DNA from: Winslowiella toletana
GTDB lineage: Bacteria; Pseudomonadota; Gammaproteobacteria; Enterobacterales; Enterobacteriaceae
Length of the DNA stretch: 64,000 nucleotides
Direction: 5' to 3'
NCBI RefSeq assembly: GCF_017875465.1
Contig: NZ_JAGGMQ010000001.1
Coordinates: 372,001-436,000, forward strand
Translations under genes and position numbers: made by a program
The notes under the pieces: generated by a model
Told to the model about the DNA's origin: nothing
The model's database searches: none
The model's input: the letters and a program-made list of their open reading frames with translations, nothing else
Shown here: positions 34,619 through 63,332 of the stretch, in pieces
How positions within the stretch are numbered: the stretch's first letter is position 1
Layout: each line of letters opens with the position of its first letter

Positions 34619-34694
34619 TCCTCTGTAGTTCAGTCGGTAGAACGGCGGACTGTTAATCCGTATGTCACTGGTTCGAGTCCAGTCAGAGGAGCCA
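34619..34694 (+). tRNA. tRNA-Asn (anticodon GTT)
   Basis: Seventy-six bases from TCCTCTG to the encoded GCCA. Acceptor stem TCCTCTG/CAGAGGA, anticodon GTT at 34652-34654 in ACTGTTAATC, T arm GGTTCGAGTCC. It matches enterobacterial tRNA-Asn. The 3' half serves as the attachment site of the integrative element that follows. Confidence 0.97.
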
Positions 34695-34855: not shown

Positions 34856-36124
34856 ATGTCTCTTACCCACGCGAAAATTCGCACTCTCAAGCCTTCTGAT
34901 AAACCCTTTAAAGTCTCCGATTCCCACGGTCTGTATCTGCTGGTCAAACCGGGCGGTTCACGTCACTGGTATCTCAAGTATCGTATCAGTGGTAAAGAAT
35001 CCCGCATTGCACTGGGTGCCTATCCTGCTGTTTCCCTGTCTGATGCCCGCCAGCAGCGTGAAGGTATACGCAAAATGCTGGCGCTGAACATCAACCCTGC
35101 TCAACAGCGGTCTGCTGAACATGGCTCACACACACCGGAGAAAATATTTAAAAAGGTGGCGCTGGCGTGGCACGGGAGTAATAAAAAATGGTCGCAGAAC
35201 ACCGCCGACCGTCTGCTTGCCAGCCTGAACAATCATATCTTTCCGGTTATCGGCCACCTGTCAGTCTCAGAGCTTAAACCCCGGCATTTCATTGACCTGC
35301 TGAAAGGCATTGAGGAAAAAGGCCTGCTTGAAGTTGCGTCCCGCACGCGGCAGCATCTCTGCAACATCATGCGCCATGCCGTCCATCAGGGATTCATCGA
35401 CAGCAACCCGGCGGCAAACCTTGACGGTGTGACAACACCGCCCGTCCGACACCACTATCCCGCCCTGCCGCTGGAGCGGCTGCCTGAGCTGACTGAACGC
35501 ATTAAGGGCTATCATCAGGGCCGTGAACTGACCCGCCTTGCCGTCCTGCTGACGCTGCATGTGTTCATTCGCTCCAGTGAACTGCGCTTTGCCCGCTGGC
35601 GTGAAATTGATTTTAGAAACAGAATCTGGATGATACCCGCCACCCGTGAAGCCATTGCAGGCGTGCGTTATTCAGGGCGTGGGGCCAAAATGCGTACTCC
35701 GCATATCGTGCCCCTTTCAGAACAGACTGTCGCCATTCTGAAAAGGATTAAGGACATATCCGGTGAATATGAACTGGTCTTTCCCGGCGATCATAACCCG
35801 TATAAGCCGATGTGCGAAAACACCGTGAACAAGGCACTGCGCCTTATGGGATACAACACTAAACAGGATATCTGCGGTCATGGGTTCAGGACAATGGCAT
35901 GCAGCGCCCTGATGGAGTCCGGTTTATGGTCGCAGGATGTGGTGGAACGCCAGATGAGCCATCAGGAGCGCAATACAGTGCGTCTGGCATACATTCATAA
36001 GGCGGAACATCTTGAAGCCCGACGGGCAATGATGCAATGGTGGTCGGATTATCTGGGTACGTGTCATAAATCTTATATCCCGCCCTATATCCTTGGACGA
36101 GAAAAGCGCGGTACCGCCGCCTGA
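34856..36124 (+). CDS. int: Tyrosine site-specific integrase (P4/HPI type)
   Basis: A 422-residue integrase. The N-terminal DUF4102 arm-binding domain begins SLTHAKIRTLKPSDKPF. A SAM-like core-binding domain follows (about 100-190). The catalytic domain shows Arg in RSSELRFARW, HGFRT (HxxR) and the nucleophile Tyr in RLAYIHKAEH. It resembles the integrases of tRNA-Asn islands such as the Yersinia high-pathogenicity island and ICEKp1-like elements. A long terminator follows. Full length, so excision could still be possible if an excisionase exists. Confidence 0.93.
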   Translation: MSLTHAKIRTLKPSDKPFKVSDSHGLYLLVKPGGSRHWYLKYRISGKESRIALGAYPAVSLSDARQQREGIRKMLALNINPAQQRSAEHGSHTPEKIFKKVALAWHGSNKKWSQNTADRLLASLNNHIFPVIGHLSVSELKPRHFIDLLKGIEEKGLLEVASRTRQHLCNIMRHAVHQGFIDSNPAANLDGVTTPPVRHHYPALPLERLPELTERIKGYHQGRELTRLAVLLTLHVFIRSSELRFARWREIDFRNRIWMIPATREAIAGVRYSGRGAKMRTPHIVPLSEQTVAILKRIKDISGEYELVFPGDHNPYKPMCENTVNKALRLMGYNTKQDICGHGFRTMACSALMESGLWSQDVVERQMSHQERNTVRLAYIHKAEHLEARRAMMQWWSDYLGTCHKSYIPPYILGREKRGTAA

Positions 36125-36281: not shown

Positions 36282-37433
36282 AATAGCTGCGCCTAATACC
36301 GCTCCACTTTTGCCAGACCATGTTTTCCTCCGGGGAATGGGCTGGCGGTTTCCATAAAATGCCGTACCTTTTTCAGCAGTTGCCACATCGTACGGCATTG
36401 ATGGTTGCGCGTTATCGTGTCGTGCAACGCCTGCCATAACCGCTCAACGTGATTCACCCACGGCGAGTAAACCGGCTGATAAATCACCCTGAACTTCGGG
36501 TTCTCCTTCAGCCAGCGCTGGGTTTCCCGGCTTTTGTGGATAATGTAGTTGTCCACGATCAGCGTGATGGTTTTTGCCCGCCGGTACGTCGCTTTAAGCC
36601 GCTTCAGCAGGCTGATGAACAGCGCCGAACTTTTGCTGTTGCCGCCCACGTAGCTGACTTTGCCCGTGCCGCAGTGCAGTGCTCCGGCCAGATAGTATTT
36701 TTCGTTCTGTCCCGGCGTCACCACGCGTTTTTGCTGCCCGCGCAGCTGCCAGTCCGCACCGATTTTGGGATTAAGATGGATATCCACCTCATCTTCATAA
36801 AATACCGGATGCTCTGCGCTGCATTCGTCCAGTGCTTTGTGGATTGCCGCCATCTTTTCATCCTTATGCGGGTCACGGATACGCAGAGTTGGCGCGGCCC
36901 TGCGCCATACCATCCCGGCCGATGGCAGCCAGCGGCGAAGGGTCCCGGCATGTAACTGACATCCGGTTATCTCATTGATTTTTATTGCCAGCAATTCGGT
37001 ACTCCAGCGTGAACGCTGATAGCCAAAATCACCGGGAGTGTGTTTTATCAACTCACGTAATAACGTGCAGATATGCTCAAACGGCCAGCGACGGGAACGT
37101 CCTGCGGGTAAGGATTGAAGGCCTTCGACACCCGACAACGTAAACCAGTTAATCCAGCGCCCGACGGAGGAACGGGCGCAGCAGAGCGTTCTGGCGACAT
37201 CGCTGACACGGTCTCCCCGGTGCAACATCAGTATGGCTGTGAGTCTGCGTGCATGATTTTTATCGCGCGTTTTATGGATAGCTTTCTGCATCAGTCGTCG
37301 TTCGTCGCGAGGAATGGGTGCTATGATCGGCATTGCTCAGTCCGGTTGGTGATTTGTGATGTTCAGCGATTGATCAGATCGCACAATCCGGACTGAGTTC
37401 CCTCAAAGTGATCTACTATTCCGCGCAGCTATT
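36282..37433 (-). mobile_element. IS630, copy 1
   Basis: A 1152-bp element with terminal inverted repeats AATAGCTGCGC/GCGCAGCTATT and a TA target duplication (36280-36281, 37434-37435). The transposase is on the minus strand. Identical in length and protein to the copies at 42503-43654 and 56830-57981. The insertion split a CTAG, the preferred IS630 target, at the extreme 3' end of the exporter gene. Confidence 0.93.
36293..37333 (-). CDS. IS630 family transposase
   Basis: A 346-residue DDE transposase. N-terminal helix-turn-helix region ([22 protein letters not shown]), then catalytic residues in [11 protein letters not shown] (D), [12 protein letters not shown] (D) and WVNHVERLW (E). Very close to the IS630 protein of Shigella sonnei as I remember it. 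Intact and therefore probably active. Confidence 0.93.
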   Translation of the reverse strand: MPIIAPIPRDERRLMQKAIHKTRDKNHARRLTAILMLHRGDRVSDVARTLCCARSSVGRWINWFTLSGVEGLQSLPAGRSRRWPFEHICTLLRELIKHTPGDFGYQRSRWSTELLAIKINEITGCQLHAGTLRRWLPSAGMVWRRAAPTLRIRDPHKDEKMAAIHKALDECSAEHPVFYEDEVDIHLNPKIGADWQLRGQQKRVVTPGQNEKYYLAGALHCGTGKVSYVGGNSKSSALFISLLKRLKATYRRAKTITLIVDNYIIHKSRETQRWLKENPKFRVIYQPVYSPWVNHVERLWQALHDTITRNHQCRTMWQLLKKVRHFMETASPFPGGKHGLAKVERY

Positions 37434-38667
37434 TAGATAACATTGCCATTGCTTCCTCTGGTTTCGCAGAAAGAAATCCCCTGACTCCCTTGTTAGATAC
37501 AATCGCCAGCATACCTGCAAAAGATAACATAGACAGAACCAAAAAAATATTATACACACCCAAGGCATCCATTAAACCACCAAATATAAGCATTGCTAAT
37601 GGCATGTTAATCATAGCAAAAAACATAAGATTTGATAAAACTCTTGTCCTCAGTTCTTTAGGCAGGTTAACCATTAACAGTGAATCAACAGTTACATTTA
37701 TCCAGTTCCTGGACAAACCAATAATAAATTGGCCTATAAACAACACAACAACGTGATGATATACACCTACCAACAATAATGACAAGAAAAAAAGAGTCGA
37801 TGATAGATATACTATATATTTACTATCAAAAACCCTTTTTAAATAAGGGAGACATAAAGAGCCTAATATAACACCACTCCCCATACTTGTTGTTAAAAAT
37901 CCGACAAAAAATGGGGGGAGACCATTTATCTCCTTTATTATATATGGAAACGCCAATGTCATTGGAGCAAAAGCAATGCCTATAATAATGCTGTATATAA
38001 AAAAACCAGAAACAACAGGATTTTGTATTGTATATCTAAATCCCTCTTTAACATCATTCATCCACGTTGATATATTAGCACCTGCATTTTCACTTTGTGC
38101 TGAATAATGTATCAACATACAAAGAAGAAACGCCACGAGCAAACAGGCCGAAAGAAACAAGAAGGAATTTGCCACTCCTAAAAATGTGACCATCGAACCA
38201 CCGAGTGCCCCCCCCAGTATCGACATTACAGAATTAATTCTCTGAGTAATATTTATGCCATCAGGAATATCATTTTCTGAAACAAGATGAGGAAGAATAC
38301 CAATGGAACCCGAGTTAAAAATGATTTTCCCTGTCGTTGACAACATTTCAAATGCAATCAAAACAGCAATATTCATTTTGCCGACAATGAAGATAGCTGC
38401 AACGATGAGATAACTGACAAATTGTATACCCAGCCCATATTGCAGCAATCTCTTCTTATTGAATCGATCACCGAGAGGGGCAACTAATGGTTGAGATATC
38501 GCTGAAATTATTAAAGGAGGAACAATAATATATGATACGTATATCATTTTTTGATACTCACCTAAAACCCACCAGATAACGGCAATGGATGATGCACTAT
38601 ATCCCAAAGCGGTGGCTATCTGCCCACATCTGTAGATCCAAAAATTTCTGCCAAGTCTGCTGTTCAT
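37429..38667 (-). CDS. MFS exporter (DHA3-like) of the peptide cluster
   Basis: A 412-residue major-facilitator transporter with about twelve hydrophobic helices. It begins LGRNFWIYRCGQIATALGYS and carries the MFS loop PLGDRFNKKRLL, the DHA3 pattern of antibiotic and siderophore exporters. ATG 38667 is chosen because GAGGTG lies 6 bases upstream and the start matches the family; the frame extends to 38799 without similarity. The last Lys codon and TAG stop are supplied by IS630. Rejoining the target gives Arg-Glu-stop instead, so the protein is essentially whole. Divergent from the peptide and radical SAM genes, and AT-rich like them. Confidence 0.85.
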   Translation of the reverse strand: MNSRLGRNFWIYRCGQIATALGYSASSIAVIWWVLGEYQKMIYVSYIIVPPLIISAISQPLVAPLGDRFNKKRLLQYGLGIQFVSYLIVAAIFIVGKMNIAVLIAFEMLSTTGKIIFNSGSIGILPHLVSENDIPDGINITQRINSVMSILGGALGGSMVTFLGVANSFLFLSACLLVAFLLCMLIHYSAQSENAGANISTWMNDVKEGFRYTIQNPVVSGFFIYSIIIGIAFAPMTLAFPYIIKEINGLPPFFVGFLTTSMGSGVILGSLCLPYLKRVFDSKYIVYLSSTLFFLSLLLVGVYHHVVVLFIGQFIIGLSRNWINVTVDSLLMVNLPKELRTRVLSNLMFFAMINMPLAMLIFGGLMDALGVYNIFLVLSMLSFAGMLAIVSNKGVRGFLSAKPEEAMAMLSK

Positions 38668-38721
38668 CTGCCACCTCGAACTTTGCTGGAAATCAATGTC
38701 ACACATCACAACACAGAACAA

Positions 38722-38750
38722 ATTGTACGTTTTGTGATCAAAATCAACAA
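38722..38750 (-). promoter_or_regulatory. Predicted promoter of the exporter gene
   Basis: On the minus strand, TTGTTG (38745-38750), 17 bases, TACAAT (38722-38727), about 55 bases before the chosen start codon. The spacer contains the partial palindrome TTTTGATCACAAAA. Confidence 0.5.
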
Positions 38751-38803
38751 ACCCACACAAATTTTGTGGATTATAGCTATCGCGCATTAATTTGCGCATT
38801 GAA

Positions 38804-38819
38804 ATAGTTCTGGAACTAT
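38804..38819. promoter_or_regulatory. Palindrome in the divergent promoter region of the peptide cluster
   Basis: ATAGTTC-TG-GAACTAT, a perfect 7-2-7 inverted repeat 45 bases before the peptide ATG, overlapping a TATCAT -10-like box (38817-38822). It has the form of a dimeric operator. No regulator gene is adjacent, so the ligand protein is unknown. Confidence 0.45.
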
Positions 38820-38864
38820 CATCTAGTTTAACTTAACTAATCAGTGAAACGTGAGGTAGTAGAA

Positions 38865-38984
38865 ATGAACGTACTTTCGAAAATCCTTAAGTTGTGTGTA
38901 TCACCAGTCCGGCACTTCGGTGTACATAACGGGCTCAACGGACACCTGGTAGATAGCGCTGATACTGGTCCTATCGGGGGTTAA
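38865..38984 (+). CDS. Putative RiPP precursor peptide (39 residues)
   Basis: A 39-codon frame with a clear ribosome site (GTGAGG, 9-10 bases upstream). The first 16 residues (MNVLSKILKLCVSPVR) form a basic, amphipathic leader-like segment with the only Cys (Cys11). The rest is rich in Gly, His and Asn (HFGVHNGLNGH at 17-27), then LVDSADTGPIGG ending in Gly-Gly. It sits between an MFS exporter and a radical SAM/SPASM-like enzyme, the classic place of a precursor gene. Likely modified residues are Phe18, His17/21/27, Asn22/25 or Asp30/33, but this is inference. It matches no RiPP family I can recall. Confidence 0.7.
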   Translation: MNVLSKILKLCVSPVRHFGVHNGLNGHLVDSADTGPIGG

Positions 38985-39033
38985 GTGGAAGCTTAACTGA
39001 CGTTGTATACAGACCAGGACTCAGGTCCTGGTC
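38980..39033 (+). terminator. Two hairpins between the peptide and radical SAM genes
   Basis: GTTAAG/CTTAAC (38980-38997) overlaps the peptide stop codon. The stronger stem GACCAGGAC-TCAG-GTCCTGGTC (39012-39033) follows, with TTAT but no long T run. Such partial terminators after a precursor gene typically stabilise its mRNA and reduce expression of the enzyme gene downstream. Confidence 0.6.
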
Positions 39034-39075
39034 TTATGCCCTTGACTTTAACTACATGACGCTCATAGGATTCGT

Positions 39076-40299
39076 ATGCAATTAACAGAAAAATATAATT
39101 CACCGCATCGTTTGCATTTGGAAACAACGAAGCGCTGCAATCTGCTTTGTGAACATTGTTATGTTTCAGCCTCAGATAATTTTGAGCATCACAAATTAAA
39201 ACAACTCAAAAAAACAATTCTTACGACTTCTCAAAAAGGAGCCACTCGCATTACTTTTACTGGTGGGGAATTTTTGATGCGCTCTGACAGCAAAGAGCTC
39301 ATTGAATATGCAATTTCTGTAGGTTATCGCAACATATACTTTATAACAAATGGAATTTACCTGAAAAAAAGTATACTCGAGTGGCTTGCCCATTTGAAAG
39401 TTAAAGAAACCATAAAATCCTTGTTCAGCACAATTTTAGGTAAAATGAGCCCTTTGACCATAGGCCTGGGAATTAGCCTTGATGGCCTTGAGGGTAATGA
39501 TCTGATCAGAAAATATAAAAATGGCAAACCTGTCAGCCATAAAAAAATTCTCGAAAAAATAAAGCTCGCTACAGAATATGGATTATATGTAACTGTAAAC
39601 ACTACCATTTGCAACAAAGTAACAGCAAAAGAATTGTATTCACTATATAGAAAATTACTCGCACTTAAAGTCGACAGATGGCAGATTGATCAGGTATTCA
39701 TGAGTGGTAGAAGCACAACAAGTTACGCAGTACAGAATAAAGAAGAATGGCTTGATATTGCCAAAGAATCTTATTATCAAATTATCAGAGATTACCTTTC
39801 AACTTACCCTCGCTATACAAACATGCGTCTTGAAATCGTTCAATTATTTAGATCTTCAATTCTAGATAATGGCTTTAAAATTATCTCTAGCGATGTTTAT
39901 CATCCATGCTCATATCAATTCGGAAGTGTAATAGTTGAAGATGGTAACAAAATTAGATTTTGTCCATCACTCAGATATAATGAGGCTGTAATTTTCAACA
40001 ATGAAGAAAAAAAGATAAGTAGTGTATCATATGATGAAAATGAAGAATTCAAAAAATTCTCCGAAATGACAATACATGATCTCCCCTGTAAAGATTGTAG
40101 ATATAAATTTATTGCACATGGAGGATGCAGAGGAAATAGCGTTTCTTATAGCAATGGATTATTTTCTAAAGATCCAGTATGTTGTGCACTTGCTCCATTT
40201 CTTGAGCAAAGAATAATACCTCTATTGCCTTACGTAATACAAAAACAATATAAGAATGCTATTTTCATTGAAGGAAAAATGCCAGAAGAAATTATTTAA
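39076..40299 (+). CDS. Radical SAM/SPASM-like peptide maturase
   Basis: A 407-residue radical SAM enzyme. The 4Fe-4S motif is CNLLCEHC (Cys21, 25, 28) and the SAM-binding GGE is in FTGGEF (63-65). The C-terminal extension resembles SPASM: Cys278, Cys296, Cys338-x2-Cys341, Cys351 and Cys369/370, but the expected Cys of the Cx5C step is Ala347. Such enzymes install C-C, thioether or other crosslinks in small peptides. It starts 91 bases after the 39-residue peptide gene (AGGA 5 bases before the ATG). The gene is AT-rich compared with the chromosome, consistent with transfer. Confidence 0.88.
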   Translation: MQLTEKYNSPHRLHLETTKRCNLLCEHCYVSASDNFEHHKLKQLKKTILTTSQKGATRITFTGGEFLMRSDSKELIEYAISVGYRNIYFITNGIYLKKSILEWLAHLKVKETIKSLFSTILGKMSPLTIGLGISLDGLEGNDLIRKYKNGKPVSHKKILEKIKLATEYGLYVTVNTTICNKVTAKELYSLYRKLLALKVDRWQIDQVFMSGRSTTSYAVQNKEEWLDIAKESYYQIIRDYLSTYPRYTNMRLEIVQLFRSSILDNGFKIISSDVYHPCSYQFGSVIVEDGNKIRFCPSLRYNEAVIFNNEEKKISSVSYDENEEFKKFSEMTIHDLPCKDCRYKFIAHGGCRGNSVSYSNGLFSKDPVCCALAPFLEQRIIPLLPYVIQKQYKNAIFIEGKMPEEII

Positions 40300-40345
40300 G
40301 AAAAATTTCAATTCTGATTGAATCAGAAATACGGTCAAGTATTCA

Positions 40346-47677: not shown

Positions 47678-50425
47678 ATGGCTACGCTGAATAAAGCACT
47701 CACGCGGCCTGCCGCCATTATGGGTATTCCTCTTGTGCCGTTCGTTCTCGTCAGTGGGGCCATCGTCCTGCTGGCGGTCTATGCCAGCTATTACCTGGCG
47801 CTGTTACTGATCCCGGCCTGGGCGGAAATGAAAAATAAAGCCCGAAAGGACATTCATTATTTCAGTCTGCTCTGGCTGGCGTTTAAAACCCGTGGACGAC
47901 TTTTCACCAATACCCATTTTGGCGCGAATGCCCTTCTGGCGAATCAGTACGATAATGTTGATGTCTCGGAGTTTATTCAGAAAATGAAATTAAACGAGCG
48001 TATTACGCTGGATAAATATATTCCGTATTCCTCCCATATTCACCCCTACGTCATCAGAAATCGTCACCGTGATTTTGTTGCCACCTGGGAGCTGGGCGGC
48101 ACAGTCTTTGAATGTGAAGACGAACAACACCTGACCCTGATGGCCACGCACCTGAATAACGTTATTCGTTCGTTTGAGGGGCTGCGGGTAACATTCTATA
48201 TTCACCGGCTCCGTGAAAAATATCATGATGTCTTTGAGGCGAATTCCGGCATTCCCTTTTCCGATGAGGTAACACGTCGGTATTACCAGCCGGTAAAAGA
48301 AAAACCGTTCTGGCGGCACCGGCTGTTTTTCACCGTCTGCTACGCGCCGTTCTCTCAGATTGAGAAGAAAACCATGAAAGCGCAGTCGCACGGTAAACGC
48401 CAGGCAGCACTGGATGACGCACTCAAAATCATGCTGGAATACCGTGAAGCACTGGAATCCTCATTATCCCGTTATATGGCAACGCCGCTGGGGATATATG
48501 AAGAAAACGGGCGAGTGTATTCCTCGCAACTGGCGTTCTTCCACCGCCTGATCACCGGACAGTGGCAGAAAGTGGCCGCAACGTGCTCGCCGTTTTATGA
48601 AACATTAAGCACGCCGGACGTGTTTTTTACCACCGACACCGGTGAATGCCAGACGGTCAGCGGTTCCCGCTTCTTCCGCAGCCTGGAGATTAAGGATTAT
48701 TCCCCGGAAACCCATACCGGTATGCTGGACGCACTGTTGTACGCCGAAAGCGAGTATGTTCTGACTCAGTCCTTTACCTGTATGGCACGGGATGAGGCGC
48801 AGAATCATATCCGGCTGGCGGAAAAACGGCTGAACTCCACGGACGACGACGCGATTTCCCAGCGCGAAGAGCTGATTGTCCTGCGCGACCTGCTGCAGTC
48901 CGGACATGTGTCGTGCGGTAAATTCCACTTTTCCCTGCTGATCTCCTCAGAAAGTCCCGGACAGGTGGTGAAGGACACTAACGTTCTGGCCCAGCCCTTC
49001 GCCGATCTGGGTATTATGACGACGCTCTCCACCCTGTCACTGCCCGCCGCATATCTGGCGCAACTGCCGGGCGTCTATACGCTGCGTCCCCGACTGGTGG
49101 CCGTCAGCAGCCAGAATTTTGCCGATATGGCCTGCCTGCATAACTTCCATCCCCACAAACGCAGCGGTAATCCGTGGGGAGAAGCCATCGCCATCCTCAC
49201 ATCTCCCGGCGGTGGCGGGTATTACCTGAACCTGCACGACAGCCAGGCCGGGCGGGATGACACCGGAGAGAAAACGCCGGGGAATACGGCGATTATCGGA
49301 AAAACCGGCTCCGGTAAAACCCTGCTGATGACTGTCATGCAGCAGCTGATGCAGAAGTACCGCAACCCGGCAACGTTTGCGCCTTCTGCCACCATCAAAC
49401 GGCTGACCACGGTGTATTTCGATAAGGACCGGGCGGCGGAGATGGCGATCCGCCAGGCGGGTGGACGATACTTCCGCATCCGTACCGGCGAGCCCACCGG
49501 CTTCAACCCGTTTGCGCTGGAGCCAACCCGCCGGAACATCAGTTTCATCAAACGGCTGGTGCGCATGCTGTGCCGCCGCAACGGTAAGCCGCTCGATCCG
49601 CGCGATGAGGAGCGGATCAGTGCCGCCGTTGACACCATCATGCTGGACTATCCGCCGGAGTACCACCGGTTAGGGATCACCCGGCTGCTGGAAGTGCTGC
49701 CGGAGCCGCCGACTACAGATGCCCGCACCAACGGGCTGCGTATTCGCCTGAAACAGTGGGCGCAGGGGGGCGAGTTCGGCTGGGTGTTTGATAACGAGGC
49801 CGATACATTCACCATCAGCGATGTCGATAACTTTGGTATCGACGGCACCGAATTTCTGGATGATGACGATATTCGCGGCCCCATCACCTTTTACCTGCTG
49901 TATCGCGTGACCAGCCTGCTGGACGGTCGCCGCCTGGTGATGTTTATGGATGAGTTCTGGCGCTGGCTGGCCGATGTCGAATTTTCCCGCTTCTCCCTCA
50001 ATATGCTGAAAGTCATCCGCAAGCTGAACGGTATCTTCGTCCCGGCAACACAGTCACCGGATGAAATCGTCAGACACCCCATCGCCCCGGCGATTATTGA
50101 GCAGTGCGGCACCCAGATTTTCCTCGCCAACCCGAAGGCCAGCCATACGGATTACGTGGAGAAAATGAAAGTGCCGGACAGCGTTTATGAGACGGTCAGG
50201 AATCTGGATCCAGGCGAGCATTATATGGTCATCCTAAAAACACCGCTTCGGGCCGGGGAAACCCGCCCGTTTGTGGCAATGGCGAAAATGGATCTGTCCA
50301 GACTGGGTAAACTCACCCGGCTTCTCAGCGGCAGTGAGGACAACCTGAAAATATTCGATGCCATTTATCAGGACGGTATGCGACCTGATGAATGGAAAGA
50401 AACCTTCCTTGAGCGGGCAATCTAA
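47678..50425 (+). CDS. virB3-virB4: Fused VirB3-VirB4 type IV secretion ATPase
   Basis: A 915-residue protein. The first 95 or so residues are a VirB3 domain (MATLNKALTRPAAIMGIPLV, a transmembrane pair, IPAWAEMKNK). The rest is the VirB4 ATPase with Walker A IIGKTGSGKTLLM and Walker B LVMFMDEFWRWL. VirB4 energises pilus assembly and substrate transfer; VirB3 anchors it. The fusion is known in some plasmid and ICE lineages. RBS and spacing (GAGG, 11 bases after virB2) fit an operon. Confidence 0.92.
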   Translation: MATLNKALTRPAAIMGIPLVPFVLVSGAIVLLAVYASYYLALLLIPAWAEMKNKARKDIHYFSLLWLAFKTRGRLFTNTHFGANALLANQYDNVDVSEFIQKMKLNERITLDKYIPYSSHIHPYVIRNRHRDFVATWELGGTVFECEDEQHLTLMATHLNNVIRSFEGLRVTFYIHRLREKYHDVFEANSGIPFSDEVTRRYYQPVKEKPFWRHRLFFTVCYAPFSQIEKKTMKAQSHGKRQAALDDALKIMLEYREALESSLSRYMATPLGIYEENGRVYSSQLAFFHRLITGQWQKVAATCSPFYETLSTPDVFFTTDTGECQTVSGSRFFRSLEIKDYSPETHTGMLDALLYAESEYVLTQSFTCMARDEAQNHIRLAEKRLNSTDDDAISQREELIVLRDLLQSGHVSCGKFHFSLLISSESPGQVVKDTNVLAQPFADLGIMTTLSTLSLPAAYLAQLPGVYTLRPRLVAVSSQNFADMACLHNFHPHKRSGNPWGEAIAILTSPGGGGYYLNLHDSQAGRDDTGEKTPGNTAIIGKTGSGKTLLMTVMQQLMQKYRNPATFAPSATIKRLTTVYFDKDRAAEMAIRQAGGRYFRIRTGEPTGFNPFALEPTRRNISFIKRLVRMLCRRNGKPLDPRDEERISAAVDTIMLDYPPEYHRLGITRLLEVLPEPPTTDARTNGLRIRLKQWAQGGEFGWVFDNEADTFTISDVDNFGIDGTEFLDDDDIRGPITFYLLYRVTSLLDGRRLVMFMDEFWRWLADVEFSRFSLNMLKVIRKLNGIFVPATQSPDEIVRHPIAPAIIEQCGTQIFLANPKASHTDYVEKMKVPDSVYETVRNLDPGEHYMVILKTPLRAGETRPFVAMAKMDLSRLGKLTRLLSGSEDNLKIFDAIYQDGMRPDEWKETFLERAI

Positions 50426-50447
50426 TATTCATACGGAGGTCATTGAT

Positions 50448-51176
50448 ATGCGGACCCGATATACCTTTCTGGCATTATCGTTATTTTTCTCGACGCAGGC
50501 GTTCAGCGGCGGAATACCGGTTTTCGATGCCGTGCAGAATACCGAATCCATTAACCAGTGGATGCAGAAACTACAACAATGGGAGGATACGGCTACCCAT
50601 TATAAAAGTGAACTTGATGCATATAAGAAGCAACTGGCTACCGCAACCGGTGTGCGGGATATTCAGGGTTTTCTCAGTGATGCCCGAAGTCTGAAAACCA
50701 ATATTGATAATCTCCGTAAGAGCGGTATTTCACTGGATGATCTGCTGACCACGCAAAACAGTTCATATTCTTCTGAACTGCAAAACCTTTACAATAAATA
50801 CAAATCGTTCAGCGTATGCAGCGAGGAACAGGAAGGAATAAAATCTCAGGGCCTGGCCGACAGTTGTAAACAGATGATCCTCAATCAGGCAATGGCGATT
50901 GAGAATACCACTGACGTTGAAAACAGGATCAACAGCACACTCAGCGACATATCAGACTTATCTGACCGTATATCGAATGCGCAGGACTCGAAAGAGTCTC
51001 AGGATCTGGCTAACGCCATCGCGGCGAAAAGCGTACAGTTAAATGCGCTGACGAATCAGTGGGAGATGTCTGTCAGACAGGCTGAACAGCGAACGACATT
51101 GCTGGAACAGCAAAGACAGAAAGCCTTTGAACAGCAGCAGCTAACGGCACCTGTTGCTGACCTTAATAATTTATAA
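50448..51176 (+). CDS. virB5: VirB5-like minor pilin
   Basis: A 242-residue exported protein. Signal peptide about 1-20 (LALSLFFSTQAFS|GGIPVF), then long helices (QWMQKLQQWEDTATHYKSEL) and a Gln-rich coiled-coil end. Minor pilus tip component. ATG 50448 follows GGAGG by 8 bases; the longer frame overlaps virB4 and is not used. Confidence 0.85.
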   Translation: MRTRYTFLALSLFFSTQAFSGGIPVFDAVQNTESINQWMQKLQQWEDTATHYKSELDAYKKQLATATGVRDIQGFLSDARSLKTNIDNLRKSGISLDDLLTTQNSSYSSELQNLYNKYKSFSVCSEEQEGIKSQGLADSCKQMILNQAMAIENTTDVENRINSTLSDISDLSDRISNAQDSKESQDLANAIAAKSVQLNALTNQWEMSVRQAEQRTTLLEQQRQKAFEQQQLTAPVADLNNL

Positions 51177-51187
51177 GGAGGTTATCC

Positions 51188-51463
51188 GTGCTCAGATCCT
51201 TATTCACCTTATGCACACTCTCAGGCGTGATATTACTGTCCGGCTGCAAGGAAACCAAATCCGAAGCCTGGTATAAGCAGCATCCTGACGAAACATATGC
51301 GGTTTATACGCAATGCCTGAAGGATGGCGAGGCAAGCGATAACTGCGAATTTGCCCACCGGGCAGCACTTATGTTTGCACAGGAAGGCCAGCCCGGGGTT
51401 AAGGAGAAATTCGGGGCGATATTTCAGCAGGAAGCTGAAAAACGAAATGCAGTGACACAGTAA
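51188..51463 (+). CDS. EexN-type entry-exclusion lipoprotein
   Basis: A 91-residue lipoprotein with lipobox LLSGC at about 16-20, then SEAWYKQHPDETYAVYTQCL, as in the EexN group that blocks redundant conjugation into donor cells. Starts with GTG at 51188 after AGGAGG (6 bases). Position between virB5 and virB6 is the usual one for eex. Confidence 0.8.
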   Translation: MLRSLFTLCTLSGVILLSGCKETKSEAWYKQHPDETYAVYTQCLKDGEASDNCEFAHRAALMFAQEGQPGVKEKFGAIFQQEAEKRNAVTQ

Positions 51464-51533
51464 TTTCTCCTCCAGCAAAACAGGGAATTCTCCCTGTTTT
51501 TATTTCCTTTCTTTATATATCAGGTGAGGCATC

Positions 51534-52565
51534 ATGTCCGGTGGTATTTTTGTTGGTATGGACAAAAACATCATGGATGGACTGAATGCCGTACTGGAAG
51601 GTCAGTCTTCCACTTACGGCACGATGATCAGCGTCATCATCGCCAGCTCTTTTACCTTATTTATACTGTACCGCGGTTACCAGACACTGGCTGGCAAACT
51701 CCGGACCCCGGTTGAAGATGTCGTCTGGGATGTGGGGCGAATGCTGCTGATCACCACCTTTGCGTTAAACCGGGATGGCTGGCTGGATTTGGCGGTAGCG
51801 GCTATCCAGGGACTCAAAGACGGTATCAGCGGCGATGATAACGTCTGGGCGCTGCTCGATACCGTCTGGGAAAAGGCACAGGCGCTGGGGCAAAAGTTAT
51901 TTAATATGGACACCTCAACTTACGTCAAACTGAATGGCGGCCTTGCCGAAGTCCTGGTATGGGGCGGCTCTGTTGTCCTGCTGATGGCAGCCACCTTTGT
52001 GAACCTGCTCGCCGAAATCACCATCCTGTTAATGACGACCACCGCGCCGCTCTTTATTTTCTGCCTGTTGTACGGTTTTCTTAAACCGATGTTTGATAAC
52101 TGGCTGAAAACAATTTTCGCGGCAATATTAACGATCATGTTTTCTGCCTTATCCATCCGTATTGCCATTAATTACCTGAATAAGATACTGGATGCTGCAA
52201 CAAAAACATCCGCTGAAACCAATATGGTAACACTGGCGGCGCAGTGCCTGCTGGCCGGGATAGCGGCAGGTGTGGTGGTCTGGTTCTCCGCGAAACTCGC
52301 CAGCGCACTCAGCGGGGCCGCCGTACAGGCGGTGCTGCAGGGTGCAGCCATGAGTGGCCTGAGCGGACTGGCAAAGAAATCCGCCGACCTCACCGGTCCG
52401 GGTGTAAAGGGTGGTGCCCGCCTGGCTGCGAAAGGCGGCATGGCCGTCGCCGCGGCGACCGGCAGACTCACCGGCGCAGGCGCGGGTAAAACCGTGAGTG
52501 CCTGGCAGAAACGCGCCGCCGCCATCGAAAGTATGAAACGCCTGAACCGGCAGCGTCACCGTTAA
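51534..52565 (+). CDS. virB6: VirB6-like membrane channel protein
   Basis: A 343-residue TrbL/VirB6 protein with several membrane segments (ISVIIASSFTLFILYRGYQT; VVLLMAATFVNLLAEITILL; LFIFCLLYGFLKP; a Gly/Ala-rich end). The conserved Trp/Asp-containing loop DVVWDVGRMLLI is present. Forms the inner-membrane part of the channel. Confidence 0.88.
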   Translation: MSGGIFVGMDKNIMDGLNAVLEGQSSTYGTMISVIIASSFTLFILYRGYQTLAGKLRTPVEDVVWDVGRMLLITTFALNRDGWLDLAVAAIQGLKDGISGDDNVWALLDTVWEKAQALGQKLFNMDTSTYVKLNGGLAEVLVWGGSVVLLMAATFVNLLAEITILLMTTTAPLFIFCLLYGFLKPMFDNWLKTIFAAILTIMFSALSIRIAINYLNKILDAATKTSAETNMVTLAAQCLLAGIAAGVVVWFSAKLASALSGAAVQAVLQGAAMSGLSGLAKKSADLTGPGVKGGARLAAKGGMAVAAATGRLTGAGAGKTVSAWQKRAAAIESMKRLNRQRHR

Positions 52566-52654
52566 TCCTCCCGATCCTTAATTTTCTTTCCCCGTCACGC
52601 CGTGGCCTGCGCCACCGGTGGGGCATTCCTGCATCCATACGATAAGGGGCTTCC

Positions 52655-52795
52655 ATGAAATTCAGAATCATCCTTCTGATGCTGTGCGCGCTCACGGGCT
52701 GCGCACGGCATCAGGGCGACCTCCCGTCGGTATCCGGCGAACCCGAGCCAGTGAATTCCCCCGCCATCATTCAGGAGCTGACTCACCATGTCTGA
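52655..52795 (+). CDS. virB7: VirB7-like lipoprotein
   Basis: A 46-residue frame with lipobox LTGC (about 13-16) after a short hydrophobic start (MKFRIILLMLCA), then a Pro/Ser-rich tail ending ELTHHV. AAGGGGC precedes the ATG. The stop lies 8 bases inside virB8, the normal overlap. VirB7 anchors VirB9 in the outer membrane. Confidence 0.78.
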   Translation: MKFRIILLMLCALTGCARHQGDLPSVSGEPEPVNSPAIIQELTHHV

Positions 52796-53471
52796 TATTC
52801 AAAACATTGTTAATGTTTCCCGCTCTTTTGAATCCATCCTGCTGGAAAAGGAAGAGCGTTCCCGAAAAACCGCCTGGCGGGTGGCTGCTGCCGGACTGAT
52901 TCTGGCCGCAATGGCGATTGCGGCCATTATTATCCTGCTGCCGCTTAAAACCACCGACACTGAATTATGGTCAGTGGATAAACAGACCGGTCGCTATGAA
53001 TATATGACCCGCGTGAAGGAGCGGGATATTTCATCTGAAAAAGCGCTGGCGCATTCACTGGCAGCACACTATGTCAGACTCCGCGAGGGATATAATTATT
53101 TCTCCCTCCAGCGTGATTATGACGACGTGCAGTTATTTAACAGCGACAGCGTGAACCGGGACTATCTGGACGGGTTTAACGGCGACCAGGCACCGGACGT
53201 GATTTTTAACAAGGCGGAATATGTTGTTGATATCGACATTATTTCCAATGTACATGCGCCTGCCACCGGGCCGGATAATCTGGCAACCCTGCGTATCAAG
53301 CGCGCTATCCGCCGTATTGCTGATAATTCCGTGAAAACGGATGTCTGGAATATCCGCCTCACCTACCGCTACGTCCCGCACCGGCAACTGACCGACAGCC
53401 AGCGCGAAGTGAACCCGCTGGGCTTTATCGTCACGAGCTACCAGCGCGACAAAGAGCTGAGGGGGGAATGA
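52788..53471 (+). CDS. virB8: VirB8-like assembly factor
   Basis: A 227-residue bitopic inner-membrane protein. N-terminal cytoplasmic tail, a single transmembrane helix (AAAGLILAAMAIAAIIILL, about 37-56) and a periplasmic NTF2-like domain with RLTYRYVPHRQL, then NPLGFIVTSYQRDKEL. Nucleates the transfer complex. Confidence 0.9.
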   Translation: MSDIQNIVNVSRSFESILLEKEERSRKTAWRVAAAGLILAAMAIAAIIILLPLKTTDTELWSVDKQTGRYEYMTRVKERDISSEKALAHSLAAHYVRLREGYNYFSLQRDYDDVQLFNSDSVNRDYLDGFNGDQAPDVIFNKAEYVVDIDIISNVHAPATGPDNLATLRIKRAIRRIADNSVKTDVWNIRLTYRYVPHRQLTDSQREVNPLGFIVTSYQRDKELRGE

Positions 53472-54358
53472 TGCTGAAACATACCCTGCTCCTCTCTGGC
53501 TTAATAATGTCATGCGTGGCATGGAGCGCAGCGACACCGCGCGGCAGCGCGTATGACAGCCGGATGCAGAACGTCACATACAACAACCAGAACGCCACGG
53601 TCGTCAGTACCCGCCCCGGCTACGTCACCATGCTGGTGTTTGACGATGATGAACCCGTTATCGATGCGCAGGCGGGTTTTCCCAGAGGCTGGACCGTGAC
53701 GAAAAGCGATAACCGGGTGGGCGTCAGCCCGAACCCGATTACCCAACCGGTCACGGATGCCAGCGGCAACAACGTCAGCCAGGTGTTTCTGCCGACGGCA
53801 AAAGACTGGAAAACCAATCTGTTCGTGGTGACATCGAAGCGCGATTACAGCCTGGAGCTGAACGTGCTGGATAAAGATTCGCCCGCTCAGGCCTTTGTTA
53901 TCCGCTACCGCTATCCCGACGAACTGCGGAAAAAGTCAGCCGCCGCTAGCGCCGCCCGTCAGCAACATCAGCAGGAAACACTGGACCGGCAGCGGATAGC
54001 GGCGGCATTCGGGCAGACCACCACGCCGCGCAACTGGCGCTATACAAAACGGGTGGCAGCCGGTTCCGCCGCCATCGCCCCGGACTTTACCTGGGATGAC
54101 GGTCGTTTTGCGTATATCGGTTTTTCCCCCACAAAAACCCTGCCTTCAGTTTTCCGGGTGGTTAATGGTCAGGAGCAGGCGGTCACGCCCCAGACCATTA
54201 AACAGGGCAACTACACCGTGATGGCGGTTCCGGCATCGCCGCAGCTGGTTCTGCGTTACGGTACCTCGGTGGTGGGGATCGAAAACAACGGATTCGGGCG
54301 TATCCCACTGACCAGCAGTGACACCGTTTCGCCGTCCGTTACGCTGGAGGCAAAATGA
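53468..54358 (+). CDS. virB9: VirB9-like outer membrane core protein
   Basis: A 296-residue periplasmic protein with a signal peptide (LLLSGLIMSCVAWSAA) and the VirB9/CagX fold: NATVVSTRPGYVTMLVFDDD, KTNLFVVTSKRDYSLELNVL and the C-terminal PDFTWDDGRFAYIGF, FRVVNGQEQAV, LVLRYGTSVVGIEN. ATG 53468 overlaps the virB8 stop; ATG 53471 is equally possible. Confidence 0.9.
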   Translation: MMLKHTLLLSGLIMSCVAWSAATPRGSAYDSRMQNVTYNNQNATVVSTRPGYVTMLVFDDDEPVIDAQAGFPRGWTVTKSDNRVGVSPNPITQPVTDASGNNVSQVFLPTAKDWKTNLFVVTSKRDYSLELNVLDKDSPAQAFVIRYRYPDELRKKSAAASAARQQHQQETLDRQRIAAAFGQTTTPRNWRYTKRVAAGSAAIAPDFTWDDGRFAYIGFSPTKTLPSVFRVVNGQEQAVTPQTIKQGNYTVMAVPASPQLVLRYGTSVVGIENNGFGRIPLTSSDTVSPSVTLEAK

Positions 54359-55659
54359 CCGACAAATCTTTCCCGGACGAACCGGAAAAAACCACCGCAG
54401 AACGGGAAGCAGAAGCCCGCGAACGCGCCCGCGCGGCAATGGCATATCAGGAGCCGGAGCAGAAAACGCCGCCCGGCCAGCCGGAAGTGACCCGTTTCCG
54501 TAAAGCATCTGATCGCCGCACGCTGATAGTCAGCCTGCTGAGTCTGGTCCTGGTCATCGCGCTGGCATCCGGTGGCGATCGTTTTCTCAGCGCCCTGAAA
54601 AGGGGTGATGAGAAAGGATCTGACACCGCGCCGCCCTCCTCCGGGGCAGTGCTGCAGGAGCGTAAGAATCTGGGCATGGACAGTAACCCGTTTGGCCTGT
54701 TCGGGCCAGGGAGGCAGGAAAGCGCAGGCCCTGCCAGTCAGAGCGCCCCGGCCACTCCAGCTCTGCCGCCCGGGCAGCCCACCCTGAACAAGGCGGCAGC
54801 ACTGGCAGACGGGCTGAACAGCGGCAGTACAGGGTCAGGGGACAATACACGCACGTCCCGAAGAGGAGTGCGCAGCAACACGGAAACGTCGGGCAGACCG
54901 TCAGCCTCCACGGCGTACACATCCTGTCAGTCTGTACTGGTCAGTGGCGAAGATGGACGCCTGCGCTGCCCGGATACGACAGCACCGGCAGGCAGCAATA
55001 ACAACGACAATCCGGGCGTTGCCCGCGTCACCGGTGTCAGGCGGCTGGGCCTCGATCCCGATCTCTATATCCCGGTGGATCGTTATATTCCGTGTTCGAT
55101 GATGCGGCGCTTCGTATCCGATGTTGGCGGTCATATCTCCTGCCTGATCAGTGAGAATGTCTGGAGCGCCAGTAACCATGTGAAGCTGATCCCGGCAGGA
55201 ACGGTCGCCCGTGGCGTCTACCGCACCGGCGCACTGCAACACGGGCGCAGCCGGATGTTTGTGCTGTGGACGGAGCTGCGCACACCGGAGCCCGGCAGCC
55301 TGCAAATCCCTCTCACTGATACGCAGGCCACTGGCCCGCTCGGTGAAGCAGGGATCGCAGGCTGGATCGACAGCCATTTCTGGGAGCGTTTCGGCAACGC
55401 CCTGATGCTCAGTACCGTGCAGGACGTGGCGGCAGCGGCATCAGATGCTGCGCCGGGTAAAGACCGCAATACCGACTATACCGAAAACACCCGCGCCGCC
55501 ACGGCGGAAATGGCGAAAACGACGCTGGAAAACAGCATCAGTATCCCGCCCACGATGTACCTGAACCAGGGCGATGTGATCGGCATCATGACCGGCACGG
55601 ATATTGATTTTTCCTCTGTTTATCAACTACAGCTAAAAAAGAAATGGTATGAGCGCTGA
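54355..55659 (+). CDS. virB10: VirB10-like energy-transducing core protein
   Basis: A 434-residue protein. Cytoplasmic acidic N-tail, one transmembrane helix (RTLIVSLLSLVLVIALASGG), a Pro/Gly/Ser-rich spacer and the C-terminal beta-barrel domain (YIPCSMMRRFVSDVGGHISC, AGTVARGVYRTGALQHGRSR, NGxxDF-like IDSHFWERFGNAL). It spans both membranes. Starts in the last codons of virB9 (ATGA) and its end overlaps virB11. Confidence 0.91.
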   Translation: MTDKSFPDEPEKTTAEREAEARERARAAMAYQEPEQKTPPGQPEVTRFRKASDRRTLIVSLLSLVLVIALASGGDRFLSALKRGDEKGSDTAPPSSGAVLQERKNLGMDSNPFGLFGPGRQESAGPASQSAPATPALPPGQPTLNKAAALADGLNSGSTGSGDNTRTSRRGVRSNTETSGRPSASTAYTSCQSVLVSGEDGRLRCPDTTAPAGSNNNDNPGVARVTGVRRLGLDPDLYIPVDRYIPCSMMRRFVSDVGGHISCLISENVWSASNHVKLIPAGTVARGVYRTGALQHGRSRMFVLWTELRTPEPGSLQIPLTDTQATGPLGEAGIAGWIDSHFWERFGNALMLSTVQDVAAAASDAAPGKDRNTDYTENTRAATAEMAKTTLENSISIPPTMYLNQGDVIGIMTGTDIDFSSVYQLQLKKKWYER

Positions 55660-56668
55660 AAACCTGTCACTGGATTTTATGAAAAATCAGCTGTTCGGTG
55701 ATTATCTGCCAGTCGAAGGGCTGACCGAAATCGCGATTAACCGACCGGGGGAACTGCACACCAAAATAAAGGGGGCATGGCAGCAGCGTGAATCCCCGAT
55801 CACGCTGCGTCATTGTTACGCCTTTGCCAGAGCACTGGCGTCCTGGCATGACGATAATATTGACGATACGTCACCGATACTGTCGGCCACGCTCGAATCC
55901 GGCGAGCGTATTCAGACGATTATTCCCCCGGCCTGTGAGCGTAACACGGTATCCATTACGTTACGCAAACCCTCGTTTGAGCGGAAAACACATCAGTCAT
56001 GGATTGATGCGGGATTTTATCAGCGCGTGGCCGGTCAGGAAAATACGGAAAGTCAGGATAATGCACTGATCCGGTTATACCACAGCGGAGATATTCCCCG
56101 CTTTATGGAAAAGGCGGTGGAATACGGCAAAACGATTTTTATTGTGGGTGAAACCGGCTCCGGTAAAACCACCTATATGAAAACGCTGCTGCATTATATT
56201 CCACCGCATCTCCGGCTGGTTACAATTGAGGACAATCCCGAAATCCGCTTTTATCACCACGCCAATTATGTTCATCTTTTTTACCCGGCGGATGCCGGGG
56301 ACAACGCCATTGTCACGCCTGGCAGGCTGATCCGGGCTAATTATCGTATGAACCCTGACCGGATATTACTGGCAGAAATTCGTGGAAGGGAGGCGTGGGA
56401 CGCGCTGAAAATTGTCGGCTCCGGGCACGAGGGATTAATCACCTCCCTGCATGCGGGCAGCCCGGAAGAATGCATTGAAGGGATCATTGACCGCTGCTAT
56501 GAAAACCCGGACTGCCGGAACATTCCTTTCGATGTGCTGTTACGCAAGGTACTTAAAAGCATTGATGTCATCGTCAGTATTGATATACACGGCGATGTGC
56601 GCCGGATGCGCGACATTTACTTCAAACCAGTTCATTTAAACAGCATGAAAGAAACATTCAGAAAATAA
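55649..56668 (+). CDS. virB11: VirB11-like secretion ATPase
   Basis: A 339-residue traffic ATPase. Walker A IFIVGETGSGKTTYMKTLL, Asp box TIEDNPEIRF, Walker B ILLAEIRGREAWDAL, His box GHEGLITSLHAGSPEEC. Hexameric, cytoplasmic face, works with VirB4 and the coupling protein. Overlaps virB10 by 11 bases. Confidence 0.93.
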   Translation: MSAENLSLDFMKNQLFGDYLPVEGLTEIAINRPGELHTKIKGAWQQRESPITLRHCYAFARALASWHDDNIDDTSPILSATLESGERIQTIIPPACERNTVSITLRKPSFERKTHQSWIDAGFYQRVAGQENTESQDNALIRLYHSGDIPRFMEKAVEYGKTIFIVGETGSGKTTYMKTLLHYIPPHLRLVTIEDNPEIRFYHHANYVHLFYPADAGDNAIVTPGRLIRANYRMNPDRILLAEIRGREAWDALKIVGSGHEGLITSLHAGSPEECIEGIIDRCYENPDCRNIPFDVLLRKVLKSIDVIVSIDIHGDVRRMRDIYFKPVHLNSMKETFRK

Positions 56669-56829
56669 CTCCGGCAAATAACATTACCCAGGATACGTAA
56701 CCTTTCATTAATCATAATGGTAACTGAAATGCAAAAAGCAATATCCTCCGTATTATTGTTCTGCGTTATTGCGTCATGTTCAACATCCGCAATGGCCGCT
56801 GATGCATGCGAAGTGGTTTTATGCATGTA

Positions 56830-57981
56830 AATAGCTGCGCGGAATAGTAGATCACTTTGAGGGAACTCAGTCCGGATTGTGCGATCTGATCAATCGCTGA
56901 ACATCACAAATCACCAACCGGACTGAGCAATGCCGATCATAGCACCCATTCCTCGCGACGAACGACGACTGATGCAGAAAGCTATCCATAAAACGCGCGA
57001 TAAAAATCATGCACGCAGACTCACAGCCATACTGATGTTGCACCGGGGAGACCGTGTCAGCGATGTCGCCAGAACGCTCTGCTGCGCCCGTTCCTCCGTC
57101 GGGCGCTGGATTAACTGGTTTACGTTGTCGGGTGTCGAAGGCCTTCAATCCTTACCCGCAGGACGTTCCCGTCGCTGGCCGTTTGAGCATATCTGCACGT
57201 TATTACGTGAGTTGATAAAACACACTCCCGGTGATTTTGGCTATCAGCGTTCACGCTGGAGTACCGAATTGCTGGCAATAAAAATCAATGAGATAACCGG
57301 ATGTCAGTTACATGCCGGGACCCTTCGCCGCTGGCTGCCATCGGCCGGGATGGTATGGCGCAGGGCCGCGCCAACTCTGCGTATCCGTGACCCGCATAAG
57401 GATGAAAAGATGGCGGCAATCCACAAAGCACTGGACGAATGCAGCGCAGAGCATCCGGTATTTTATGAAGATGAGGTGGATATCCATCTTAATCCCAAAA
57501 TCGGTGCGGACTGGCAGCTGCGCGGGCAGCAAAAACGCGTGGTGACGCCGGGACAGAACGAAAAATACTATCTGGCCGGAGCACTGCACTGCGGCACGGG
57601 CAAAGTCAGCTACGTGGGCGGCAACAGCAAAAGTTCGGCGCTGTTCATCAGCCTGCTGAAGCGGCTTAAAGCGACGTACCGGCGGGCAAAAACCATCACG
57701 CTGATCGTGGACAACTACATTATCCACAAAAGCCGGGAAACCCAGCGCTGGCTGAAGGAGAACCCGAAGTTCAGGGTGATTTATCAGCCGGTTTACTCGC
57801 CGTGGGTGAATCACGTTGAGCGGTTATGGCAGGCGTTGCACGACACGATAACGCGCAACCATCAATGCCGTACGATGTGGCAACTGCTGAAAAAGGTACG
57901 GCATTTTATGGAAACCGCCAGCCCATTCCCCGGAGGAAAACATGGTCTGGCAAAAGTGGAGCGGTATTAGGCGCAGCTATT
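56830..57981 (+). mobile_element. IS630, copy 3
   Basis: A 1152-bp copy in inverted orientation to copies 1 and 2, flanked by TA (56828-56829, 57982-57983). It interrupts the TrbM/KikA gene. The rebuilt target is GTAC, not the usual CTAG. Confidence 0.93.
56930..57970 (+). CDS. IS630 family transposase
   Basis: A 346-residue transposase identical to the other two copies, with an intact DDE triad ([21 protein letters not shown]). Confidence 0.93.
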   Translation: MPIIAPIPRDERRLMQKAIHKTRDKNHARRLTAILMLHRGDRVSDVARTLCCARSSVGRWINWFTLSGVEGLQSLPAGRSRRWPFEHICTLLRELIKHTPGDFGYQRSRWSTELLAIKINEITGCQLHAGTLRRWLPSAGMVWRRAAPTLRIRDPHKDEKMAAIHKALDECSAEHPVFYEDEVDIHLNPKIGADWQLRGQQKRVVTPGQNEKYYLAGALHCGTGKVSYVGGNSKSSALFISLLKRLKATYRRAKTITLIVDNYIIHKSRETQRWLKENPKFRVIYQPVYSPWVNHVERLWQALHDTITRNHQCRTMWQLLKKVRHFMETASPFPGGKHGLAKVERY

Positions 57982-58239
57982 TACTGTAAAACAACGGGAA
58001 ACAGCGGCGGCAGTGAATGTCACTCCGCTGAACGGGCATTCTTTAATATCGTGAAAAAGAATAAACACGGCTTTCTTCCTGACCATACGGCCGATGCCAG
58101 AAAATCATTTTTGAGTGAATGTGATTCGGCAGACCCGGCGACTATCGATCAGATCATCAGTAAATATGGCCGCGTTCGTGGTTAATACTGGCGAGACCGG
58201 CAAAGAGCGTGACGGTTTTCAGGTTTTTACGGCTTCTGT

Positions 58240-63253: not shown

Positions 63254-63332
63254 GGCGATCTCCTCAGAGGACATAATCAGTATGTCGGAAGATCTCTAAA
63301 AGTGAATGGACCGTTTTATCGGGATACTTACA

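Follow-up and report, generated by a model that had tools for sequence, protein, structure and literature searches.

In a 64,000-nucleotide stretch of the Winslowiella toletana genome (the window), three genes at positions 37429-40299 probably make up an uncharacterised pathway for a small modified peptide. Read from the sequence and its list of open reading frames (ORFs), they are a divergent exporter of the major facilitator superfamily (MFS), a 39-codon ORF and the gene for a 407-aa radical S-adenosylmethionine (SAM) enzyme, and they lie between an integrase associated with a tRNA-Asn gene and a VirB-type secretion region. The window comprises bases 372001-436000 of the larger of two contigs in a 5.3-Mb genome. 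We consider it likely that the three genes form a rare orphan cassette for a ribosomally synthesized and post-translationally modified peptide (RiPP), consisting of a precursor, a radical SAM/SPASM maturase and an exporter. The initial annotation had proposed this layout, and all three genes were found where it placed them.

The enzyme, the peptide and the exporter

The candidate maturase (39076..40299, plus strand, 407 aa) carries a CxxxCxxC motif formed by Cys 21, 25 and 28, as well as a TGGE motif. The model PF04055 scores 64.0 bits against a cut-off of 29.5, placing the enzyme in the radical SAM superfamily, and the SPASM model TIGR04085 scores 31.2 against 27 bits on the C-terminal 147 residues, spanning positions 1-93 of 93. 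Cysteines 278, 296, 338, 341, 351, 369 and 370 form the C-terminal set. With both models above their cut-offs, the earlier description of the enzyme as SPASM-like is borne out. Pfam gave no match to the C-terminal half at E<=5. Besides TIGR04085, 15 models match this half (E 4e-6 to 0.13), all below their cut-offs, and 12 of them describe peptide- or protein-modifying enzymes: PqqE, three anaerobic sulfatase maturases, DynA, WgkB, SCIFF, TIGR04083, nif11, KxxxW, XyeB and DarW. The other three are TIGR04347, TIGR04053 and NirJ2.

Compared as a whole with NCBIfam, the enzyme attains the cut-off of none of its best 25 of 73 matches by E-value, the last of the 25 scoring 38.1 bits; TIGR04053 is the best of the 73, at 76.8 bits against 395. 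The claim that the enzyme fits no RiPP maturase family holds for the families tested. PqqE (TIGR02109) scores 60.5 against 381.35 and DynA 43.5 against 450 on the whole enzyme, and on the C-terminal half DarW scores 11.1 against 650, the triceptide model TIGR04496 (XyeB) 11.8 against 450 and the ranthipeptide model SCIFF 17.3 against 425; DarW and TIGR04496 are absent from the best 25 of the 73 whole-enzyme matches. Likeness to the epipeptide maturase EpeE takes the form of a Protein Data Bank (PDB) match over the core only. Because the core cysteine motif begins at residue 21, there is no room for an N-terminal RiPP recognition element (RRE). In the consulted passages of one source, PqqE is described as lacking an RRE and relying on a separate PqqD (PMC8326336).

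The candidate precursor is the 39-codon ORF between the two larger genes (ATG 38865 to stop 38984, plus strand), which encodes MNVLSKILKLCVSPVRHFGVHNGLNGHLVDSADTGPIGG (39 aa). Residues 1-17 include three Lys or Arg, no Asp or Glu and one Cys (at position 12). The last 22 residues contain six Gly, two His, two Asn, two Asp and one Phe, with no Lys, Arg or Cys; the peptide ends in Gly-Gly and has no Trp. No family matches it in NCBIfam, Pfam (E<=1) or PHROGs.

A scan of genome contigs with six exact 8-residue words, a method that can miss relatives of lower identity, returned one relative locus, in Rouxiella aceris SAP-1. There the same three genes stand in the same order at a tRNA-Asn, adjoined by the same integrase, and all 39 residues of the peptide are identical, with one synonymous change in 120 nt. 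The initial annotation had said that its reading would fail if homologous maturases had no conserved 39-codon frame next to them; this was not the case in R. aceris, the one relative available. Elsewhere in the block, differences amount to 4 of 91 positions in the ORF-to-enzyme spacer, 11 of 197 in the exporter-to-ORF spacer, 43 of 1224 plus a 7-nt gap in the enzyme gene and 34 of 1239 plus gaps of 3 in the exporter gene, so that the maturase and spacers differ at 3.5-5.6% of bases. Synonymous divergence (dS) is 0.035 in the peptide gene (one change), 0.09 in the first 408 codons of the exporter, 0.10 in enzyme codons 1-199, 0.15 from enzyme codon 209 and 0.20 in the integrase. The ratio of nonsynonymous to synonymous divergence is 0.15 and 0.11 in the two enzyme pieces, 0.07 in the exporter and 0.15 in the integrase. 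The low change count in the peptide is suggestive but falls short of significance.

A GAGG ribosome-site motif (38853..38856, plus strand) precedes the ORF and is unaltered in R. aceris. Translation from the in-frame GTG at 38844 would lengthen the peptide by seven codons; R. aceris also has this stretch as an open frame, in which one of the seven residues differs. ATG 38865 is favoured as the start, though not proven, because GAGG stands 8 nt upstream of it. The 46-aa extended peptide gave one match among plasmids, at E=7 and inside a sigma-factor gene. A core motif (with Leu limited to CTN) matched 13 stretches in viral contigs, none of them peptide-like beyond the motif.

The exporter gene (37429..38667, minus strand) encodes an MFS_3-type protein of 412 aa from ATG 38667; its last residues have been changed relative to R. 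aceris by an adjoining IS630 copy. PF05977 scores 73.7 against 27 bits, and TIGR00900 scores 142.2, below its cut-off of 319.6. No solved structure matches the protein at E<=1. A tblastn search of plasmids returned nine records at 21-26% identity, and the neighbourhoods of all nine were read. The Burkholderia record has no annotation at that place, so the counts that follow use eight. In Pantoea ananatis and Paraburkholderia megapolitana the relative stands beside genes for YcaO, TfuA, a ThiF-type protein and a cupin, and in Sutcliffiella it occurs with a lantibiotic dehydratase, LanC and a GNAT gene. On the Salmonella plasmid an MFS-cupin pair follows two large hypothetical proteins and a rhodanese-like protein; ATP-grasp genes lie nearby in Pseudalkalibacillus and Pantoea dispersa, an AMP-binding protein in Exiguobacterium and methyltransferases in Streptomyces. 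Thus, on the annotations as read, all eight relatives lie near biosynthetic genes (most weakly for Salmonella), and three of the eight (P. ananatis, Paraburkholderia and Sutcliffiella) lie beside hallmark RiPP enzymes. These neighbourhoods raise our confidence in the RiPP reading slightly. They support peptide export rather than prove it, since identity is low and the comparison lacks a control with unrelated MFS exporters.

A proposed route to the product, and other readings of the cassette

If the cassette works as we propose, the 39-residue peptide would be translated as a precursor whose first half (about residues 1-17), basic and hydrophobic in character, binds the enzyme, and whose Gly/His/Asn/Asp-rich second half (about residues 18-39) is the part modified. 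The core cluster and SAM would abstract hydrogen from a residue in the second half and the SPASM clusters would take up the electron, yielding a cross-link, an epimer or another oxidised product. Trimming would then fall to a host protease and export to the MFS protein, a step that could also protect the producer. Composition rules out a Cys-based link inside the second half, as residues 18-39 contain no Cys, and Trp-based daropeptide chemistry, as the peptide has no Trp; a cross-link to Phe, His, Asn or Asp, or an epimerised Val or Ile, is conceivable. A signalling role may be imagined for such a product, and antibacterial action, guessed from the layout, is a tentative suggestion to which we give somewhat poor odds. 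No result supports the earlier claims that the product is microcin-like and antibacterial, that the first half of the peptide is a leader or that the MFS protein exports the product, although distant relatives of the exporter do sit in biosynthetic clusters.

Several observations weigh against the RiPP reading. Conservation of the peptide rests on one other locus, and the deficit of changes in the peptide relative to the maturase is not significant (Fisher p 0.17, Poisson 0.077). The R. aceris maturase (L002:6001-7231) is split into frames of 206 and 199 codons by a short insertion, so that this copy may be inactive through decay, or the split may be an assembly error. Taken alone, the 39-codon ORF is within chance expectation: when the 408 nt between the genes were subjected to 2000 dinucleotide shuffles, 105 of these had on the same strand an ORF that begins with ATG, spans 39 codons or more and carries a ribosome-site-like motif. 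What lifts the ORF above chance is the identical peptide in R. aceris. The best whole-protein matches of the enzyme include tetrapyrrole enzymes and viperin; in the PDB a lipid synthase (33.7 bits) and MoaA (33.2) score highest, followed by the peptide enzyme SkfB (30.2), and the matches there are confined to the core save for a weak C-terminal one to PqqE (E 0.091). No model or structure match names a substrate for the enzyme. Nor was an RRE, a peptidase or an immunity gene recognised on reading the ORFs, hidden Markov models (HMMs) for these not having been run.

Base composition adds a further point of this kind. The cassette had been described as AT-rich cargo on a conjugative element, which is true of the exporter (36.3% GC) and the maturase (33.3%), for contrast with 53.4% in the integrase and 54.6% in the secretion system, and untrue of the peptide ORF, which has 48.3% GC overall and 48.7% at third codon positions against 26.3% at those positions in the maturase. 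The stretch may therefore have come from elsewhere, or its RNA may be under constraint.

Constraint as RNA would fit an explanation in which the 39-codon ORF is a regulatory leader whose translation opens or closes RNA structure ahead of the radical SAM gene, the peptide itself being no substrate. Its composition, unlike that of the flanking genes, is consistent with such a role, as is a hairpin of 10 pairs with a loop of 4 between the two genes (AGACCAGGAC-TCAG-GTCCTGGTCT, 39011..39034, plus strand). The hairpin is preserved in R. aceris with one G-C to G-U change and, having no T-run, is unlisted in a terminator scan. Pairing between the last ORF codons and the ribosome site plus start of the enzyme gene has a mean of 0.86 in the window, a value reached by 2 of 300 synonymous recodings, and this falls to 0.62 with a modelled terminating ribosome. 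In R. aceris, however, the pairing is ordinary (178 of 300 recodings reach it) and masking the terminating ribosome leaves 0.70, while in the window itself stronger pairing (0.91) is seen at one of 15 control starts. Folding of the 121-nt stretch has a z-score of -4.9 in the window and -3.2 in R. aceris, but for the spacer alone the values are -2.6 and -0.9, and no Rfam family matched at E<=5. Translational coupling of the ORF and the enzyme gene, seen in the window and not in R. aceris, is thus possible, though not shown. Coupling does not need the identity of all 39 residues and can coexist with a precursor role, and we regard a purely regulatory ORF as improbable.

We likewise judge it quite improbable that the enzyme acts on a small molecule, that the MFS protein exports this molecule or a drug, and that the short ORF is incidental. 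Such an arrangement would agree with the chance expectation for the ORF, with the top PDB matches, which are not peptide enzymes, and with the MFS models for the exporter, of which an H+ antiporter model scores best, ahead of those for macrolide and multidrug efflux. It would also agree with the whole-enzyme matches to AhbC-type (69.7 bits), NirJ2 (65.5) and viperin (NF038283, 68.2) models. These scores are far below the respective cut-offs of 650, 500 and 180, as is a further tetrapyrrole AhbC/NirJ score of 54.4 against 515.45, and what the proteins have in common is mostly the core. The C-terminal half of the enzyme instead favours peptide- and protein-modifying models, and the peptide frame is identical in a second element. 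RiPP enzymes beside three of the eight annotated exporter relatives also speak for a peptide, though the other five are compatible with small molecules.

A viperin-like antiviral enzyme making modified nucleotides is suggested by the PADLOC pVip model (79.1 bits), yet the best stretch of this match lies on the common core (residues 17-106), the NCBIfam viperin model falls well short, no nucleotide kinase adjoining the enzyme was recognised on reading the ORFs and, to our knowledge, viperins have no SPASM domain, so that we give this explanation almost no credence.

Distribution of the cassette and its integrative element

The RiPP cassette appears to be rare, rarity having been measured on genome samples with E thresholds that differ between them. 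For the maturase, only its own genome was returned in the order sample (1 of 394, E<=1e-20), the class sample (1 of 369, E<=1e-12) and the sample of its own genus (1 of 37, E<=1e-10). The phylum sample gave 22 of 398 at E<=1e-9, namely the genome itself and 21 that match only about residues 12-110, and were set aside. Also rejected were three of 398 in an inferred Pseudomonadaceae sample at E<=1e-8, all of them NirJ-like as judged by their neighbours, without an HMM. E. coli genomes, near and distant, contained no maturase relative. One phage record matched the maturase, at 22.6%, and the 22 matching stretches in viral contigs included no relative of it. An AlphaFold2 structure prediction from 3 rows reached a mean predicted local distance difference test score of 44.7.

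Among plasmids, 17 records match the maturase, and the neighbourhoods of four were read. Three of the 17 are from Pseudomonas aeruginosa, where residues 294-406 match at 41.6% (L004:5001-5384 and two more plasmids) immediately downstream of an RND permease gene and upstream of a GNAT gene. This match looks like a C-terminal remnant that has lost the N-terminal part and the region upstream, and suggests that a more distant family of the enzyme may exist. Around the Treponema (27%) and Paenibacillus (25%) matches the annotation shows no similar gene set, a comparison that covers annotated genes only. A GNAT gene also follows the exporter relative in the Sutcliffiella cluster, which we note as a lead only; one daropeptide cluster is reported to contain a putative N-acetyltransferase (PMC9055067, consulted in part). 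No account of the cassette was found among the literature matches listed.

The cassette is cargo of an integrative and conjugative element (ICE) of about 32 kb. The tRNA-Asn gene that serves as attachment site (34619..34694, plus strand) is followed by a tyrosine integrase (34856..36124, plus strand; PF00589, PF13356, PF22022), which we take to be P4-like. The last 16 nt of the tRNA gene (34679-34694) recur as a direct repeat at about C1:438719-438734, some 32 kb downstream and beyond the window. Two further copies of the 15-nt repeat pattern occur in the genome, at 546383 and 563947, and a tRNA search in the 20 kb holding the right-hand repeat found none. The VirB-type secretion region (47678..60745, plus strand) was identified with Pfam and includes VirB3/B4 (47678-50425), a VirB11-like protein (55649-56668) and a coupling protein (58856-60745). 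No gene was identified as a relaxase, and the name mobC occurs only in matching Klebsiella records. The right part of the window matched 3348 plasmid records, none covering 80% of it. The ORF lists that span the element contain nothing longer than 915 aa, and the element therefore holds no large synthetase. Between the window and R. aceris the three-gene block is 96.5% alike, against 92.5% for the adjoining integrase, suggesting that the cassette has been exchanged between elements or is better kept.

Three IS630-type transposases with identical 346-aa products are encoded at 36293-37333, 42514-43554 and 56930-57970. The first (minus strand; PF13358) has inserted at the exporter gene's 3' end and is missing from that place in R. 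aceris, and another interrupts the secretion region between the VirB11-like and coupling-protein genes. A broken remnant downstream of the maturase (40335-41085) is presumably IS1-like. Near the right end of the element, beside an IS3-type insertion, a 132-codon fragment at 63328-63726 has an aminotransferase class I/II fold (PF00155), and we assume it to be 5-aminolevulinate-synthase-like.

In the divergent promoter region of the cassette, the palindrome ATAGTTCTGGAACTAT (38804..38819, no strand assigned) is a candidate operator. This is its sole exact copy in the genome, one more place having a single mismatch, and it is unchanged in R. aceris; the one match in the window compares with a shuffle mean of 0.10. 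No regulator gene was recognised nearby. Long-range pairing joins the last peptide codons to the enzyme ribosome site and start across 38962-39076, and is outstanding in the window only.

Relation to known peptide systems and elements

An enterobacterial cassette that resembles known systems in layout, with an enzyme below the cut-offs of the maturase models among the best 25 of 73 matches, is a concrete and cheap target for new peptide chemistry. It is also compact, with three short genes and one candidate substrate, and its placement in an ICE could explain a rare and patchy spread. A bolder possibility, which we think unlikely but worth stating, is a new RiPP class, in which a radical SAM/SPASM enzyme lacking an N-terminal RRE would make an undescribed modification on the Gly/His/Asn/Asp-rich C-terminal half of the 39-residue precursor, the product would be exported by an MFS protein and the three genes would be traded among enterobacteria as ICE cargo. 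That half of the precursor would be free of Trp, Tyr and Cys alike.

The radical SAM RiPPs of Photorhabdus and Yersinia are described, in the parts of the source consulted, as including the darobactin type (PMC9055067). The daropeptides and dynobactin (DarE/DarW, DynA) share with the cassette a short precursor beside a radical SAM/SPASM enzyme and, for darobactin, an exporter. The cassette differs in its enzyme (DynA 43.5/450, DarW 11.1/650) and in a peptide without Trp. Darobactin uses the DarBCD ABC transporters, whereas the cassette has an MFS protein, and darobactin made in E. coli is trimmed by E. coli proteins (same source, same passages), which makes trimming by host proteins conceivable for the cassette as well.

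The XYE/triceptide systems resemble the cassette in having a radical SAM/SPASM peptide maturase, and the XyeB model (TIGR04496) gives the cassette enzyme 11.8 against 450. The sole aromatic residue (Phe, Trp or Tyr) in the second half of the cassette peptide is one Phe followed by Gly-Val. Phe-Gly-Val is, we presume, a poor cyclophane motif. The epipeptide maturase YydG/EpeE (PDB 8ai6, 24.3 bits) and the sactisynthase SkfB (PDB 6efn, 30.2 bits) have the radical SAM core in common with the cassette enzyme, but both matches end by residue 108, and the second half of the cassette peptide has none of the Cys expected of a sactipeptide or ranthipeptide core. YcaO-TfuA and lanthipeptide-type clusters contain MFS exporters distantly related to that of the cassette (21-23% identity), and they employ YcaO or LanB/LanC enzymes, with no radical SAM gene in the stretches read.

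The synthesis of microcin C7 depends on an adenylating enzyme, whereas the cassette enzyme is a radical SAM protein; the MccC of microcin C7 is an MFS protein. This class I microcin resembles the cassette in combining a short peptide with an efflux protein for export and immunity, according to the consulted passages of PMC10233263. Finally, the element itself has the ICEKp-type layout of an integrase at tRNA-Asn, a short direct repeat and a virB-type type IV secretion system. In ICEKp, as described in the parts of PMC6202445 consulted, the integrase is likewise at the left end and the tRNA-Asn site carries a 17-bp repeat, compared with 16 nt here; the present element is set apart by its size of about 32 kb, a cassette beside the integrase and the lack of a large synthetase.

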